Assembly (NCBI GenBank): GCA_002816875.1
Contig: MUCP01000039.1
Span: 1 to 45,725 of the forward strand
DNA length: 45,725 nt
DNA from: SAR202 cluster bacterium Io17-Chloro-G2
GTDB lineage: Bacteria; Chloroflexota; Dehalococcoidia; Lucifugimonadales; UBA3495
Direction of reading: 5' to 3'
Position 1 is the first letter of the stretch. Each line of letters starts with the position of its first letter. Position numbers and translations under genes: made by a program. Shown piece by piece: positions 19,497-27,325 of the stretch. The notes beneath the pieces were generated by a model that saw only the letters and a list, made by a program, of their open reading frames with translations, had not been told where the DNA came from and did not search any database.

Positions 19497-20531
19497 TTAC
19501 AGAGGACCGCCGGAGAAATTGGCGGTCTGCTTGCGAAAGATCTGGAGGCGCTGGCGTGAGCATTCCACCACAAAGATCCTGCCCTCATCGTCCACGTCGA
19601 CCGCTATTGGCCCGTGGAACAGCTTCTCCTTCTCTATTAGGCCCTGGGCCCTTTCCCTGCCCCTAACCATCGATGGGTCCAGATTCACCCGCTCTCGGCC
19701 CCACTTTGACAGGGTCGCCTCGCCGGTCAGTGTGGTGATAAAGGCCCCATCGGCGTGGAACACCTGAAGTCGGTCGTTCTTGAAGTCGGTGACGTAGATG
19801 ATGCCATCCTTGTCAACAGCCACTCCGGTGGGCCTGTTGAACTCTCCATCGCCCTGTCCAGAAGTTCCGAACTTCATCAGGAATCGGCCGTCACGATCGA
19901 ATTTTTGAATCCTGTCGTTGCGCCAGTCGGCCACGTACACGTCGCCATTGCCGTCGATCTCTATGCCCCAGGGATGGTCAAACTCGCCATCGCCGGTTCC
20001 AAACCGGCCGAATTTGGATATGAATCTTCCCTCTTTGGTGAACACCTGAACTCGATGGTTCACGCTGTCCACCAGATAGAGATTGTCGTCGGCATCGAAA
20101 GCCAGCCCGGAGGGCCGGTTGATCTCGCCGTCGCCATCGCCCAGGGTCCCCCACTTGGCGACACACTCTCCGTCCTTGTCAAACACGGAAATGCGGTTTA
20201 GCCATTCATCGGCTACGTAGGCGTTGCCAGCCTTGTCCAGGGCTATTGCCGTGGGCCACATGAAGGTCCCGTCGGGGGCTGAAGCGTCGGCCTCTTCGGG
20301 ATGGACTTTAGTGCCGAATTCCCGGACTAATTCCTCGTCGACAGTGAACACTGTGACCCGCTTGCAGGGGAAAAACGCCGGGGTCTCGGAGCCGCGGTTC
20401 AGCACGTACAATTGGTTCTCTTCGTCCCGGGTTATTGCTATCGGATAGAAGAACCCGCTCCCACTCCGGTTTTCTTGCCTTCCGATGGTATGGCTATATT
20501 CGAACGTTATCGGCGCAATCTCAGTGACCAT
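19497..20531 (-). CDS. NHL-repeat six-bladed beta-propeller protein
   Basis: 344 aa. Successive blades follow the NHL pattern with GDGDGEINRPSGLAFDADDN, LYLVDSVNHRVQVF, FGTGDGEFDHPWGIEIDG, YVADWRNDRIQKF, GQGDGEFNRPTGVAVD and IYVTDFKNDRLQVF. The ATG at 20531 has GAGG 5 nt upstream. No signal peptide or membrane segment is visible, so it should be cytoplasmic unless exported another way. NHL propellers are binding scaffolds; some have lyase or lactonase activity. The partner or ligand cannot be read. It lies downstream of the DUF1501 gene on the same strand, separated by a repeat. Confidence 0.88.
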   Translation of the reverse strand: MVTEIAPITFEYSHTIGRQENRSGSGFFYPIAITRDEENQLYVLNRGSETPAFFPCKRVTVFTVDEELVREFGTKVHPEEADASAPDGTFMWPTAIALDKAGNAYVADEWLNRISVFDKDGECVAKWGTLGDGDGEINRPSGLAFDADDNLYLVDSVNHRVQVFTKEGRFISKFGRFGTGDGEFDHPWGIEIDGNGDVYVADWRNDRIQKFDRDGRFLMKFGTSGQGDGEFNRPTGVAVDKDGIIYVTDFKNDRLQVFHADGAFITTLTGEATLSKWGRERVNLDPSMVRGRERAQGLIEKEKLFHGPIAVDVDDEGRIFVVECSRQRLQIFRKQTANFSGGPL

Positions 20532-20761: not shown

Positions 20762-21898
20762 TTACTTGATGAAGTCGAACTGCTCGTAGGTTGCCCCGAG
20801 TATCGGATTGGCATCCAAGCCCATCCACTGCTCCAGCAACGTGGCGTAGCTGCTCCGGAAATCGTTGTTCCATTGCAGATCGCCCGAGTCCAGTTTTTCC
20901 GGCTCCAAAGACGGGTATTCTCCGTATAGGCCACCCTTCACGGCGTCGCCGATGACGAAGGCCACTCCGCCAGAGCCGTGATCGGTGCCCGAGCCGTTCT
21001 CCTGTACCCTGCGGCCGAACTCGGTGAACAGCAACATCACGACTTCCTCGTTGGCGTTGTGTTCCTTCAGGTCTTCGTAGAAGTCGCCGATGGCGCTGGT
21101 CACGTCGCCCCACAGTTTGGGCAAGGTGATGTTCTGGTTGGCGTGGGTATCGAAGGTGCCGGGATTTACGCCGGTGTAAAGCACCCGGGTCCCAAAGCCT
21201 GCCAGATGCACCTGGGCGATGCTCTTCAGCCACTGAGCGAAGGGGCTGCCGCCGTACTCCACGCTGGAGGAATACATTTCCGGCGCCGTGCTGAGGATGT
21301 CAGCTCCCTTAAGGGCGTCCAAACCGGTCTGGGACAGGTAGTCGCTCACGGGCCCGGAGCCGATCATGGGAGCGTACATGCGGGCGAATATGTCCAGGGC
21401 TTCAGTCCGCTGGTCGTCGCCCTGGATCCCCGTCAGCACTCCGTAGTTGCTGAGATCGCCCACGGAAGCTACCGATACGCCGGGCGCGGCCAGAGCCCTC
21501 GGGAGCCCACGGCCAAAGTTTACGGCGGTCAATATGTTCTCTTTGTTGGGGTCGATATCACGAATGGCCTTGCCCAGCCAACCTTCGGTGATCATCTTTT
21601 CGGGCTCGGCAGTATGCCAAATGTCCAAGGACCGGAAATGGGAGCGAATAGGGCTGGGATACCCGATGCCCTGCAGCACGGCGACCTTACCTTGGTCGTA
21701 CATTTCCTTTATCGGACCCATGCCCGGGTGGAACCCGACCTTGTCATCCACGGCCAGTACTTCGTCCGGACCGACCTGCAGCGTAGGCCGGTAATCCGGG
21801 TAATGGGGGTCGCTGTAGGGAATGAACGTGTTCAGGGCGTCGTAGGCCCCCGTCATTTGCAGTACTACCAGCACCGGGTCTTTCTTGTTGGAGGTCAT
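20762..21898 (-). CDS. DUF1501 family protein
   Basis: 378 aa. DUF1501 proteins are related to sulfatase or phosphatase folds and are usually Tat-exported. Here the N-terminus (MTSNKKDPVLVVLQMTGAYDALN) has no twin-arginine or Sec signal. Typical segments: VGFHPGMGPIKEMYDQGKVAVLQGIGYP, SHFRSLDIWHTAEP, FDTHANQ, LLFTEFGRRVQENGSGTDHGSGG. The ATG has AAGGAG in front. It follows the DUF1800 gene by 84 nt on the same strand. This two-gene pair is recurrent in many phyla, so the proteins probably act together; the reaction is not known. Confidence 0.92.
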   Translation of the reverse strand: MTSNKKDPVLVVLQMTGAYDALNTFIPYSDPHYPDYRPTLQVGPDEVLAVDDKVGFHPGMGPIKEMYDQGKVAVLQGIGYPSPIRSHFRSLDIWHTAEPEKMITEGWLGKAIRDIDPNKENILTAVNFGRGLPRALAAPGVSVASVGDLSNYGVLTGIQGDDQRTEALDIFARMYAPMIGSGPVSDYLSQTGLDALKGADILSTAPEMYSSSVEYGGSPFAQWLKSIAQVHLAGFGTRVLYTGVNPGTFDTHANQNITLPKLWGDVTSAIGDFYEDLKEHNANEEVVMLLFTEFGRRVQENGSGTDHGSGGVAFVIGDAVKGGLYGEYPSLEPEKLDSGDLQWNNDFRSSYATLLEQWMGLDANPILGATYEQFDFIK

Positions 21899-21982: not shown

Positions 21983-23386
21983 CTAGGCGTAAAGATATTC
22001 CTTAGTAGCCACAATCATTTGCAGCATCTCGCTTACGTGCTTCGGGAACTCTTGCGCATCGGTGGACGACACGCCGCTCTTCCGGGCGTGTTCCACCAAC
22101 GACTGATGGTTCTCATCGGTCAGTTCGTAGTGCCCCAACAGCTTGAGGCAGCCGTCCACCAGGCCCTGCGGGGAGATGGTGGGGCCTTCCGAGGCTAGCT
22201 TTTGAACTATATCCTGTATGCCAGGGAAGCTGACATCGCCCACGTGGTCGGCTATGAAGTTGATCCGGCGGACCAGGGTGCCACCGTCGATCCACTCTTT
22301 ACCCGTATGCCAACCTTCGACGGATGGCGGGTTCAATATCTCCTGACCCATATGCTTCATTTCCTCGAAAATAGCCTCGAAGCCGGGTTTGGGAGTCGTC
22401 CAATCGCCGACCAAGCGCAACGTGCCGATCACGGTCTCTATCGGCCCCTTGATCCTGGCAAAACGGGCGTTCTTGAAAGCGTCGGAGTTGAACAGGACCC
22501 GAAGCATGGAGCGGATGTCGTAATTAGAGCGGAAATACTCGTCTTCCAGCATCTTAATGGTTTCCGGGTCCCGGGGCGGGGTGTCCATCCAAGACGGCAC
22601 CTGGGCTTCGTCGGCTACAAAGTAGTCGTAAAAGTGGCGGGAGATGAATCTCGCCGTCGCCGGCTGCTGGCAGATGATATCGATGACATCTTCGCCGTTG
22701 AAGTTGCCCGTGTGGCCCAAGAAAGTCTTTTCTTCGTCATCGTGGTCGTCGGGGTTATAAGCGAAGCTCGCCGGGTAGCGCCCGTAGGGCTGCCCTGGGA
22801 TACCGTTTGAGATGGTCCAGCCGGTGAATGCCCGGGCGCACTCCTTCACGTCATCTTCGGTGTAATTGAAATTTCCGTCCATGCCCACACCCATGGAGAA
22901 TAATTCCAGCAACTCCCGGCCGTAGTTCTCGTTGATCGCGCCCTTATGGCTCAGGCAGTTGTCTAAGAAGTACAACATGGCGGGGTCTTTGGAGATCTCT
23001 ACCAGCAGGTCTTTGAAGCTGCCCATTCCCTTCAGGCGCAGCATCTCCAACTCGGCGTGGGACGTGACGTAACTCTGTGTCTTGCTGTCAGCGGTGCATA
23101 GAATGCCATGCCAGAAGAGCATCATCTTTTCTTGCAGTTGGCTATAAGAATTGATCATGCGAAACGCGGTGTATTCGGGGACGCACCGGATGAAGTGGTT
23201 CCATTCTATGAAGTACCGCTCACCAAGGTCCAGGTCCATGCGGTTGGAATTGTTTTCGGGATGGAGCAGTTCCTCCACCGTTTCCTCGTACCCTTTCCCG
23301 GCGCGGGCTTCAAGCTCTTCGTACTGGGCGCCGAATCCGGCGCGCCGCATGAGGTGAGCCATCAAAGCGATATCTTTATCTCCCAT
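21983..23386 (-). CDS. DUF1800 family protein
   Basis: 467 aa, mostly helical. Family landmarks: AHLMRRAGFGAQYEELE at the N-terminus, MLFWHGILCTAD, YFLDNCLSHKGAINENYGRELLELFSMGV, YTEDDVKECARAFTGW, FLGHTGNFNGEDVIDIICQQPATARFISRHFYDYFV, and NPPSVEGWHTGKEWIDGGTL. The start ATG at 23386 has GAGGAG 6 nt before it. No signal peptide. It is the first gene of the DUF1800-DUF1501 pair, probably driven from a minus-strand promoter at 23449-23476. Confidence 0.93.
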   Translation of the reverse strand: MGDKDIALMAHLMRRAGFGAQYEELEARAGKGYEETVEELLHPENNSNRMDLDLGERYFIEWNHFIRCVPEYTAFRMINSYSQLQEKMMLFWHGILCTADSKTQSYVTSHAELEMLRLKGMGSFKDLLVEISKDPAMLYFLDNCLSHKGAINENYGRELLELFSMGVGMDGNFNYTEDDVKECARAFTGWTISNGIPGQPYGRYPASFAYNPDDHDDEEKTFLGHTGNFNGEDVIDIICQQPATARFISRHFYDYFVADEAQVPSWMDTPPRDPETIKMLEDEYFRSNYDIRSMLRVLFNSDAFKNARFARIKGPIETVIGTLRLVGDWTTPKPGFEAIFEEMKHMGQEILNPPSVEGWHTGKEWIDGGTLVRRINFIADHVGDVSFPGIQDIVQKLASEGPTISPQGLVDGCLKLLGHYELTDENHQSLVEHARKSGVSSTDAQEFPKHVSEMLQMIVATKEYLYA

Positions 23387-23699: not shown

Positions 23700-24248
23700 A
23701 TGGTAACCGAGACTGCCAAAACCCGAATGGTGATCCTGAATCCGACCTCGCCACCGCTGGAAGTAGACGCCAGATTGGCCACGAGGCCATTGGACCTGAA
23801 CGGCAAGGTGCTGGGTCTACTCAATAACAGCAAACTGAACGCGTCCAATCTGCTGGACGAGGTCGGTGAACTGCTTTCTCAGCGCTACGAGTTCGCCAAG
23901 GTCATCAAAGGCTCCAAGCCGAACGCGTCAACGCCGTGCCCGGAACACATCGTCAAGGAATTCGCGGCCAGTTGCGACGTGCTGGTAACCTCCAACGGTG
24001 ATTGAGGGTCCTGTTCATCGTGCAGTTTGCACGACGGCATAACTTTCGAGAAGCTGGGCATCCCAACCGCCGTCCTTTGCACCGAGCCTTTCATCCCCAC
24101 GGCGAGGACGATGTCCCGCATCTTGGGGATCCCTGACTACCATTTCGCCGTCCTTCCCCATCCCTTGGGAAGCCTAACTCCGGGAGAGTTGAAGGAGCGG
24201 GCCAAGGTGGCCCTGCCCCAGGTCATAGAGATCCTTCTGGGGACCTAG
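23700..24248 (+). CDS. UGSC family selenoprotein (Sec at UGA 24003)
   Basis: The frame from ATG 23700 (AGGAGGAG just before it) reaches a TGA at 24003-24005 and continues in the same frame to a stop at 24246-24248. Read with Sec at residue 102 it gives a single 182-aa protein whose centre is SNGD-U-GSC-SSC-SLHDG. This is the U-G-S-C motif that names the UGSC (seleno)protein family. The second half (EKLGIPTAVLCTEPFIP, PHPLGSLTPGELKERAKVA) is coding in style and ends normally. A SECIS-like hairpin follows the UGA at 24018. The family's reaction is not known; Sec with nearby Cys suggests redox chemistry. The next gene (24398) is on the same strand. If the cell lacks Sec machinery the gene would be a truncated pseudogene, which the motif makes unlikely. 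Confidence 0.93.
24018..24034 (+). promoter_or_regulatory. SECIS-like hairpin of the UGSC gene
   Basis: TCGTGCA, loop GTT, TGCACGA: a perfect 7-bp stem whose loop starts 19 nt after the UGA. It has a G in the first loop position, as known for bacterial SECIS elements read by SelB. Confidence 0.75.
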
Positions 24249-24397: not shown

Positions 24398-25432
24398 ATG
24401 GAACAAACAAACCTGACCTCTGAGCGAGTCGCCGTGGAAGACGCGGCCAATGTCATAGAGTTCTACTACGAGAAGGGCTGGACCGATGGCTTACCGGTGG
24501 TCCCGGCCACCGAAGAACGTGTCCGGGAGTTCTTGTCGGCAGCGGGCCGGTCGCCCAGCGACGTCATCGGCGTGGTGCCCACGCGAGGCCGGGTGATCAC
24601 CGCCGAAAAGGTAGCCATCAACGCGGTGATGGCCGGTTGCCGGCCCGAATACATGCCGGTGCTGGTGGCGGTCATTGAGGCCATGTGCGAACCAGAGTTC
24701 AACTATCACGGCAGCCAGGCCAGCACGGGCAGTTCGGCCCAGCTCATCGTCGTGAACGGACCCATTGCCGCCGACTTGGAAGTGAACTCGGGCGTCAACG
24801 TGTTTGGCCCCGGCGTTAGGGCTAACTCCACCATAGGCCGGGCGGTGCGCCTGATCAATATGAACGTCACCGGCGGCACCCCGGGCATACTGGACAAGTC
24901 CACCCTGGGCCAGGGCGGGAAATACAGCATGTGCATCGCCGAGAACGAACAGGCCAGCCCCTGGGAGACGCTCCACGTTCAGCGGGGATATGCCGCGACA
25001 GAGAATACGGTCACGGTTTTCGCCGTCATGTCGCCTTTGCAAGTTTCCGACGGCGCCAGCAATTCTCCCGAGGCTCTTTTGGATAATTTCGCTCTCGCCA
25101 TGAATGGCATGCGCAATGGCATGGGAGAATTCGTCATAGTCATGTCGCCGGAGCACGCTCGACTCTTCCGCAACGCCGAATGGAGCAAACGCCAGGCCAT
25201 GGAATACCTCCACGAGCACGCCGCCGTCTCAGCTGAGGACCTGAAACGCCAAGGCAGGTTATCTGGCGACGTCGAGCCGGGGGACGCCACGGACATGCAA
25301 CCCCTCGTGAAAACCTCCGATGGCATCGTTTTCCTGGTTGCCGGCGGCGAGGCGGGTGGATTCTCCTCTCTGATCTCACGATGGGGCGGCGGCACCTCCA
25401 GCCGATCGATCACCAAGGTCATCAAAACGTAG
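24398..25432 (+). CDS. Unknown protein downstream of the UGSC gene
   Basis: 344 aa from ATG 24398, which has AGAGG 5 nt upstream; the open frame extends to ATG 24371 and TTG 24332. I recognise no named domain. The protein is soluble-looking with glycine-rich loops. Notable segments are YYEKGWTDGLPVVPATEERV near the start, GVVPTRGRVITAEKVAINAVMAGCRPEYMPVLVAVIEAM, STGSSAQLIVVNGPI, GVNVFGPGVRANSTIGRAVRLINMN, GGTPGILDKSTLGQGGKYSMCIAENE and a C-terminal FLVAGGEAGGFSSLISRWGGG. Cys residues occur in MAGCRPEYM, EAMCEPEF and YSMCIAEN. Placement directly after the UGSC gene suggests a shared function. I believe the pair recurs in other genomes but cannot show it here. Confidence 0.8.
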   Translation: MEQTNLTSERVAVEDAANVIEFYYEKGWTDGLPVVPATEERVREFLSAAGRSPSDVIGVVPTRGRVITAEKVAINAVMAGCRPEYMPVLVAVIEAMCEPEFNYHGSQASTGSSAQLIVVNGPIAADLEVNSGVNVFGPGVRANSTIGRAVRLINMNVTGGTPGILDKSTLGQGGKYSMCIAENEQASPWETLHVQRGYAATENTVTVFAVMSPLQVSDGASNSPEALLDNFALAMNGMRNGMGEFVIVMSPEHARLFRNAEWSKRQAMEYLHEHAAVSAEDLKRQGRLSGDVEPGDATDMQPLVKTSDGIVFLVAGGEAGGFSSLISRWGGGTSSRSITKVIKT

Positions 25433-25481: not shown

Positions 25482-26264
25482 ATGCCATACGTAGAGATTC
25501 CCGGCGTAAAACTTTGGTATACCGACGCCGGTGGCGAAGGCACTCCCGCGATATTCCTGCACGCCGCCTCGGGCACCTGCGAGAGTTGGGTGTTTCAAGT
25601 GCCGGTATTCACGGCGGCGGATTATCGATGCGTCGCCTATGACCGGCGGAACTGGGGCCGGTCCCGCCCTTCCAATACCGGGGACCAACCGGGCTATATG
25701 GGTGATGACCTTCAGGGATTGGTGGACCACTTGGACTTGGACCGCTTCCATCTGGTGGCCACGGCCGCCGGCGGGATCACGGGTTTGGATTACGCGCTGG
25801 ACCATCCAGAACGGGTCCGCAGCTTGGTCATATCCAACACCATCGGCGGTGCAGAGGACCCGGCCTACCTTGAGGTCCAGCAAAGGCTCCGGCCACCGGA
25901 GATTCAGGACCTGCCCATCGAATTAAGGGAACTCGGGCCTTCATATCGAGGCACCGACCCGGAAGGGACTCAGCGATGGATAGAAATTGAGCGAAGCACC
26001 CGTCCAGACGGCTCCATTGGGCACGGGGCGAGGCAGCCGCTGCGCTATGCCATGACCCTGGCGCGGTTGGAAACGATGAAGGTCCCCGTGCTTGCGCTGG
26101 TGGGCGGCGCGGACCTATTGTCGCCACCGGCGCTAATGCGGCTGCTGACGGCCCCCATCCCCGGTTGCCAATTGGTGACGGTGCCGGATGCGGGGCACGC
26201 GGCGTTCTGGGAGGAGCCGGAAACCTGGAACAACCTGGTGTTGGAGTTCATAAACCAGCATTAG
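25482..26264 (+). CDS. Alpha/beta-hydrolase fold protein lacking the nucleophile
   Basis: 260 aa with clear fold landmarks: AIFLHAASGTCESW (oxyanion region), VAYDRRNWGRSRPS, then LVATAAGGITGLDYALDHPERVRSLVISNT, LALVGGADLLSPP (acid) and PDAGHAAFWEEPE (His). At the nucleophile elbow the usual GxSxG is ATAAGG, with Ala95 where the catalytic Ser should be. It is otherwise intact. It begins 49 nt after the unknown gene at 24398 and probably belongs to the UGSC transcript. It may catalyse a reaction that does not need a serine, or only bind a ligand. Confidence 0.85.
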   Translation: MPYVEIPGVKLWYTDAGGEGTPAIFLHAASGTCESWVFQVPVFTAADYRCVAYDRRNWGRSRPSNTGDQPGYMGDDLQGLVDHLDLDRFHLVATAAGGITGLDYALDHPERVRSLVISNTIGGAEDPAYLEVQQRLRPPEIQDLPIELRELGPSYRGTDPEGTQRWIEIERSTRPDGSIGHGARQPLRYAMTLARLETMKVPVLALVGGADLLSPPALMRLLTAPIPGCQLVTVPDAGHAAFWEEPETWNNLVLEFINQH

Positions 26265-26419: not shown

Positions 26420-27325
26420 ATGAACTCGAGAGATCTGATCGGCTACGGTCCCAACCCGCCGGTGGTGCAATGGCCCAACGGGGCTAGGATCGCCGTCTCA
26501 GTGGTGGTGAACTACGAGGAAGGCTCCGAGTACTCCCTTCTGGACGGCGACCCCCACGGGGAAACATCGGGCGAATCCCCGTCCAACGTCCCCACCGGAG
26601 AACGGGACTTGGCCAACGAGTCATTCTTCGAGTACGGCAGCAGGGTCGGCGTGTGGCGGATCATGAACCTGTTGGATCGATATCACGTCAACGGGACGTT
26701 TTTCTGCTGCGCCCTGGCCTTGGAGCGAAATCCCGAAGTGGGTCCGGAGATCATCCGCCGAGGCCATGAGGTCATGGGGCACGGCAACCGGTGGGAAGAG
26801 TACTTCCGGATGGACCGGGATACCGAGCGGGAGGCCATCAAACAAGCGATCGAGTCGATCACCCGCACGACCGGCCAGCGGCCCTTGGGTTGGTACACCC
26901 GCTACGGTCCAAGCGTGAACACCCGTGAGTTGGTGGTCGAAGAGGGCGGATTCATCTACGACTCCAACGCCTACAACGATGACTTGCCCTTCTACACCGA
27001 AGTGCATGGGAAAGAGTGGCTGGTGGTCCCCTATTCGTTGGAGGTCAATGACACCAAATTCTGGCGAGGCCAACTGATCACGCCAAACGACTTCTTTGAG
27101 GCCGCCCGGTCCTGCTTTGACACGCTTTACGAGGAAGGCGCCACACACCCGAAGATGATGTCGGTTGGTCTTCATTGCCGGATAATCGGCAAACCTGGCC
27201 GGGCTGACGGGTTAAGGCAGTTCCTCCAGTATGCATCGGAGAAGGAGGGTGTGTGGTTCGCCCGGAGGTTGGACATCGCCCAGTGGTGGCTGAAAAATTA
27301 TCCACCGGAAAATCAATCGGGGTGA
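26420..27325 (+). CDS. Polysaccharide deacetylase family protein, PuuE allantoinase-like
   Basis: 301 aa, NodB-fold. It starts RDLIGYGPNPPVVQWPNGARIAVSVVVNYEEGSEYSLLDGD, the pattern of cofactor-independent allantoinase PuuE and related proteins. Further segments are NGTFFCCALALERNPEVG, IIRRGHEVMGHGNRWEE, GWYTRYGPSVNTRELVVEEGGFIYDSNAYNDDLPFY and SVGLHCRIIGKPGRADGL. ATG 26420 has GAGG about 8 nt upstream. True allantoinase would need purine catabolism genes; a molybdenum hydroxylase lies at 32190 but no uricase or allantoicase is seen. Substrate therefore open. Confidence 0.88.
   Translation: MNSRDLIGYGPNPPVVQWPNGARIAVSVVVNYEEGSEYSLLDGDPHGETSGESPSNVPTGERDLANESFFEYGSRVGVWRIMNLLDRYHVNGTFFCCALALERNPEVGPEIIRRGHEVMGHGNRWEEYFRMDRDTEREAIKQAIESITRTTGQRPLGWYTRYGPSVNTRELVVEEGGFIYDSNAYNDDLPFYTEVHGKEWLVVPYSLEVNDTKFWRGQLITPNDFFEAARSCFDTLYEEGATHPKMMSVGLHCRIIGKPGRADGLRQFLQYASEKEGVWFARRLDIAQWWLKNYPPENQSG

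Follow-up and report, generated by a model that had tools for sequence, protein, structure and literature searches.

A UGSC family selenoprotein gene with a predicted in-frame selenocysteine codon and its recurrent partner gene in a SAR202 cluster bacterium

The UGSC family of (seleno)proteins has been known since 2008, and a 2026 review counts it among the selenoproteins with largely uncharacterised functions (PMC13188914). UGSC fusions with a domain called Unknown_1 were reported by Zhang and Gladyshev in their Global Ocean Sampling study (PMC2398784) and, as far as the accessible parts of the papers go, those in which UGSC and glycine reductase occur together are surveys of selenoproteomes. 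Our literature search, here and below, covered open-access papers; it found none that brings together SAR202 and selenoproteins. UGSC is not mentioned in the accessible text of two papers on SAR202 (PMC6946804, PMC10444878) that we searched for selenium, though selenocysteine (Sec) proteins are numerous in the related genomes studied here. Here we describe a further member of the family, encoded at positions 23700-24248 of a 45,725-nucleotide stretch of SAR202 cluster bacterium Io17-Chloro-G2 (contig MUCP01000039.1, assembly GCA_002816875.1; this whole stretch is called the window), together with the gene that follows it at 24398-25432, which we call the partner.

The UGSC gene lies on the forward strand. 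It starts at ATG 23700 with the ribosome-binding site acaggaggagtaaATG directly ahead and ends at the TAG of 24246-24248, and ordinary gene calling breaks it at an in-frame TGA (24003-24005) into two pieces, 23700-24005 (101 residues) and 24027-24248 (73 residues, TTG start). The initial annotation, made from the sequence alone, had foreseen this division into two short proteins and had read the halves as one UGSC selenoprotein split by the UGA, with a frame open and coding on both sides and a U-G-S-C-S-S-C motif around it; each of these points held. Upon read-through the 182-residue product, in which the UGA becomes U102, matched both NCBIfam NF041046 (E 2.9e-43; 147.4 bits against a curated cut-off of 125) and Pfam PF24696 (E 2.3e-54; 184.5 bits against 25). 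The NF041046 match covers residues 35-179 and so runs across the TGA, and the frame holds no other stop. The motif stands at the conserved family position: U102-G-S-C105-S-x-C108 and C127 are invariant in UGSC, columns 100-106 and 108 of the family alignment (A2) are invariant as well, and U102, C105, C108 and C127 are unchanged across the 24 UGSC/partner pairs compared. On this sequence evidence 23700-24248 almost certainly codes for a complete (seleno)protein of the UGSC family in which the UGA would be read as Sec.

The UGA itself is conserved to a striking degree. The PF24696 family was present in 80 of 118 related genomes, and every listed match reads on through exactly one inner TGA, where homologs ending at the UGA would have spoken for a stop. 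A single inner TGA was likewise found in the UGSC matches of the eight genomes examined in detail and in the listed matches of ten further matching genomes from a phylum sample. When 36 distinct UGSC genes were aligned by codon, the TGA was unchanged in all of them. The genome of the window carries three UGSC genes besides 23700-24248, and seven Chloroflexota genomes (G007, G010, G011, G020, G041, G238 and G253) have 8 to 13 matches each, a marked expansion for a selenoprotein.

Behind the UGA, at 24018-24034 (forward strand), the RNA can form a hairpin of seven base pairs (UCGUGCA/UGCACGA, arms 24018-24024 and 24028-24034) that closes on a GUU loop 19 nucleotides from the UGA, in agreement with the perfect GUU-loop hairpin at the right distance that had been noted at the outset. 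We take this spacing and the early G in the apical loop to fit the bacterial model of the selenocysteine insertion sequence (SECIS). The 51-nucleotide stretch that contains the hairpin folds with a z of -3.2, and the core CGTGCA-GTN-TGCACG is identical in the 36 distinct genes. Codon choice within the hairpin region is nearly fixed (Cys108 TGC, Ser109 AGT and His111 CAC each in 36 of 36 genes, Asp112 GAC in 34), while elsewhere it varies: His154 is CAT in 21 genes and CAC in 15, Asp93 is GAC in 22 and GAT in 13, and the conserved residues outside the hairpin region have a mean codon entropy of 1.42 bits. Among distant members four stem pairs were changed on both sides (12 such cells, versus 1.2 in shuffled alignments), and 92.9% of stem cells were paired, versus at most 60.7% with the partner strand slid. 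An Rfam search of the window found no RNA family. Given synonymous sites that are frozen here and variable in the rest of the gene, and stem changes that compensate one another, this hairpin is very probably a bacterial SECIS.

Decoding of the UGA would also require the Sec machinery, and the check for it did not refute the reading as a selenoprotein. The assembly to which the window belongs (G000, the window being on its contig C40) comprises 1.56 Mb and is judged 56% complete. It contains a tRNA-Sec with the anticodon UCA (C28:7992-8084, 66.9 bits, TCA in the DNA), and a genome search of this 56%-complete assembly did not find selA, selB or selD, an absence that can arise because only about half of a genome is at hand. 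SelA, SelB and SelD were found in most relatives. A genome of the same genus (G001) has SelA and SelD, and in genome G016 tRNA-Sec, SelA, SelB and SelD are all present; the UGSC protein of the latter (L019) shows 80% identity, and the same gene lies beside it. The genome of the window itself also encodes a predicted PrdB-like protein with a UPIC motif (C27:35350-36450, or L132:351-1450), a Sec protein of a second kind, and this counts in favour of Sec decoding.

The partner gene (24398-25432, forward strand) encodes 344 residues, with a GWTDGLPVVP motif and a cysteine, Cys81, within the sequence MAGC. Its relatives adjoin most UGSC loci examined. In eight genomes, 32 of the 33 UGSC genes have a partner-family gene at a distance of 6 kb or less, and for 29 of them the distance is under 1 kb; in the seven of these genomes other than the fragmentary one of the window, 28 of 29 UGSC genes were near a partner, where random placement gave 0.53 on average and never more than 4 of 29. 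The order of the two genes varies, UGSC coming first in the window and second at many other loci. Four pairs (G025:2799323, G033:4163018, G054:1838934 and G082:803170) share a frame that contains a single TGA, giving open frames of about 550-600 residues, and L110 is an additional fused UGSC/partner protein. The pairwise distances of the UGSC and partner families also correlate, with r = 0.96 (permutation maximum 0.49), which counts for a link between the two. The partner family is probably the Unknown_1 of PMC2398784; the accessible part of that study reports the fusions alone and does not describe a near-obligate neighbour gene. As judged from gene neighbourhoods the partner looks near-obligate, a neighbour that had gone unmentioned in the initial annotation. 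The near-constant adjacency and the fusions make the partner a likely co-functioning protein, and UGSC and partner very likely form one functional unit. We hold it quite probable that this unit, together with Sec decoding and the UGSC identity, will stand as a whole.

Profile comparisons gave a first indication of what the unit might do. When UGSC was aligned by hhalign with the GrdB-like Sec proteins that these bacteria encode, Sec fell on Sec (E 1.9e-5, hhalign probability 78), and the PrdB-like set gave a weaker alignment (E 0.0018, probability 15). The match of UGSC to TIGR01917 (GrdB), at E 2.4e-4 and 20.2 bits, does not reach the curated cut-off of 602.2; weak as it is, it agrees with the profile-profile alignment. 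UGSC and the GrdB reductase selenoproteins thus appear to be distantly related. A comparison of the partner with GrdB showed no such relation, and when solved structures were searched by sequence, the partner had no match and UGSC had chance matches only. The AlphaFold model of UGSC (mean predicted local distance difference test score, pLDDT, 86.5) has a Rossmann-like alternation of strands and helices. Its Foldseek and VIA matches were generic Rossmann-like structures, the best being a designed protein (Z 11.0) and a chain of the methyl-coenzyme M reductase activation complex (Z 10.5), and we read no function from them. No thioredoxin is among the listed structure matches; together with the model this speaks against the thioredoxin-like fold suggested in 2008, although a missing match is no proof.

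The GrdB-like proteins themselves call for some care. The PF07355 (GRDB) model ends exactly at the Sec UGA, with the result that GrdB- and PrdB-like Sec proteins look like frames that stop at TGA (L078-L101). Short PF07355 matches lacking inner stops were considered as cysteine versions of GrdB, but they end exactly before a TGA; that reading was rejected, the matches being Sec proteins that the Pfam model truncates. Many GrdB- and PrdB-like Sec proteins occur in the related genomes, some with a UGTSTRSG motif that lacks the second cysteine.

The mechanism that we propose as the most likely can be set out step by step. The UGA at 24003 would be read as selenocysteine by tRNA-Sec and SelB, directed by the SECIS at 24018-24034. 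The product would carry the Sec and serve as the redox subunit of a reductase made of two proteins; the second, the partner, would bind the substrate and place it beside the Sec. The U102 selenolate would then attack a small organic substrate, as in GrdB and PrdB chemistry, with oxidation of the Sec-Cys pair. The U102-G-S-C105 motif would thus cycle between a selenol/thiol and a selenenylsulfide form (C108 and C127 are invariant too), and the thioredoxin/thioredoxin reductase system would supply the electrons that reduce the motif again, in line with the thioredoxin reductase or thioredoxin-reductase-like genes seen beside UGSC at four loci. We infer the physical complex of the two proteins, the reductase activity and thioredoxin as donor. 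That the pair is a thioredoxin-fed, GrdB-like reductase has, in our estimate, an even chance.

Besides selA, selB and selD not being found in the assembly, several points weigh against this proposal. The GrdB match is remote. The partner had no Pfam or NCBIfam match in profile searches, which included no direct comparison with GrdE or PrdA; lacking a pyruvoyl subunit of this kind, a GrdB-like mechanism would need some other activation of the substrate. The correlation between the distances of the UGSC and partner families is partly expected of adjacent genes that are inherited together. A thioredoxin reductase neighbour was seen in only four of the loci examined and none lies in the window: in L033 the end of UGSC is overlapped by such a gene, which scores just above the NCBIfam curated cut-off, and in L035-L037 thioredoxin-reductase-like genes lie directly behind UGSC. 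Finally, the accessible text of the literature examined cites no biochemical data for UGSC.

Those same thioredoxin reductase neighbours, and a UxxC motif typical of thioredoxin-like redox proteins, could instead indicate that UGSC is a general thiol oxidoreductase of the thioredoxin type, engaged in repair or peroxide defence, with its neighbour merely one client. This we consider unlikely. The AlphaFold model is Rossmann-like with no thioredoxin among the listed structure matches, the sequence relation of UGSC is to GrdB, and the tie of 32 of 33 genes to one partner, with four pairs fused, is unlike a general reductase. A second alternative, to which we give rather little credence, is that the pair is a hydratase or lyase, the partner being distantly fumarate hydratase-like and UGSC giving a metal or thiol ligand instead of electrons. 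The AlphaFold model of the partner (pLDDT 84.2) did find class I fumarate hydratases as its first 21 Foldseek matches (best E 2.1e-4), and across the 24 pairs its Cys81 is invariant and its Cys179 nearly so. However, these structure matches, mostly class I fumarate hydratases, are weak: the TM-scores are 0.22-0.29, all below 0.3, the root mean square deviation is about 16 Å, and the best VIA Z for a fumarate hydratase, 5.0, could arise by chance. Only two cysteines are conserved in the partner; a class I fumarase employs three. That the UGA is a true stop, leaving a decaying pseudogene or two separate proteins, is extremely improbable, for against the selA, selB and selD genes not found in the assembly stand a TGA kept in every listed homolog, covariation in the SECIS, the tRNA-Sec, a frame with no other stop, and sequence that is strongly conserved before and after the TGA.

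The remaining genes around the locus were called with a codon-usage caller. An alpha/beta hydrolase gene (25482-26264, forward strand) begins about 50 bp behind the partner and is possibly in the same transcription unit; it recurs in two regions only and is not a conserved neighbour of the UGSC/partner pair. Further on is a gene for an allantoinase PuuE-like polysaccharide deacetylase (26420-27325, forward strand; TIGR03212 E 6.4e-103, below its cut-off). On the other side of UGSC, all on the reverse strand, lie adjacent genes of the uncharacterised families DUF1501 and DUF1800 (20762-21898 and 21983-23386) and a gene for an NHL/6-bladed beta-propeller protein (19497-20531); the cluster of the beta-propeller protein recurs near UGSC in six of the regions examined.

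Compared with what has been described, the protein shows no essential difference from the NF041046/PF24696 family as far as the accessible part of PMC2398784 presents it: the match is full length, and the UGSC motif and the in-frame UGA with its SECIS are shared. Beyond the known family the present analysis adds a near-obligate partner, a remote relation to GrdB and a thioredoxin reductase neighbour at some loci. The partner gene is a concrete lead on the function of UGSC, and with these three additions an orphan becomes a protein that can be co-expressed and assayed. With the thioredoxin-like UxxC selenoproteins UGSC shares the UxxC motif and, presumably, a role in thiol redox chemistry, and it differs in a predicted fold that is Rossmann-like, with no thioredoxin among its listed structure matches. 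With GrdB and PrdB (TIGR01917, TIGR01918, TIGR04483, PF07355) it shares a stretch of about 100 remotely homologous residues around the Sec, with U aligned on U, and the UxxC spacing of some members, and they are encoded in the same genomes. Unlike GrdB, UGSC is shorter and lacks the N-terminal part, and unlike both GrdB and PrdB it has a partner that falls into no known family (the neighbours were not searched for GrdE or PrdA). It is conceivable, and we put it forward tentatively as a rather doubtful proposal, that UGSC and its partner make up a new class of Sec-dependent two-protein reductase without a pyruvoyl subunit, distinct from the glycine, sarcosine, betaine and D-proline reductases. 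On this view the class would have multiplied in Chloroflexota, SAR202-like ones among them, to as many as about a dozen paralogs in one genome, and individual pairs might each act on an organic substrate of their own.
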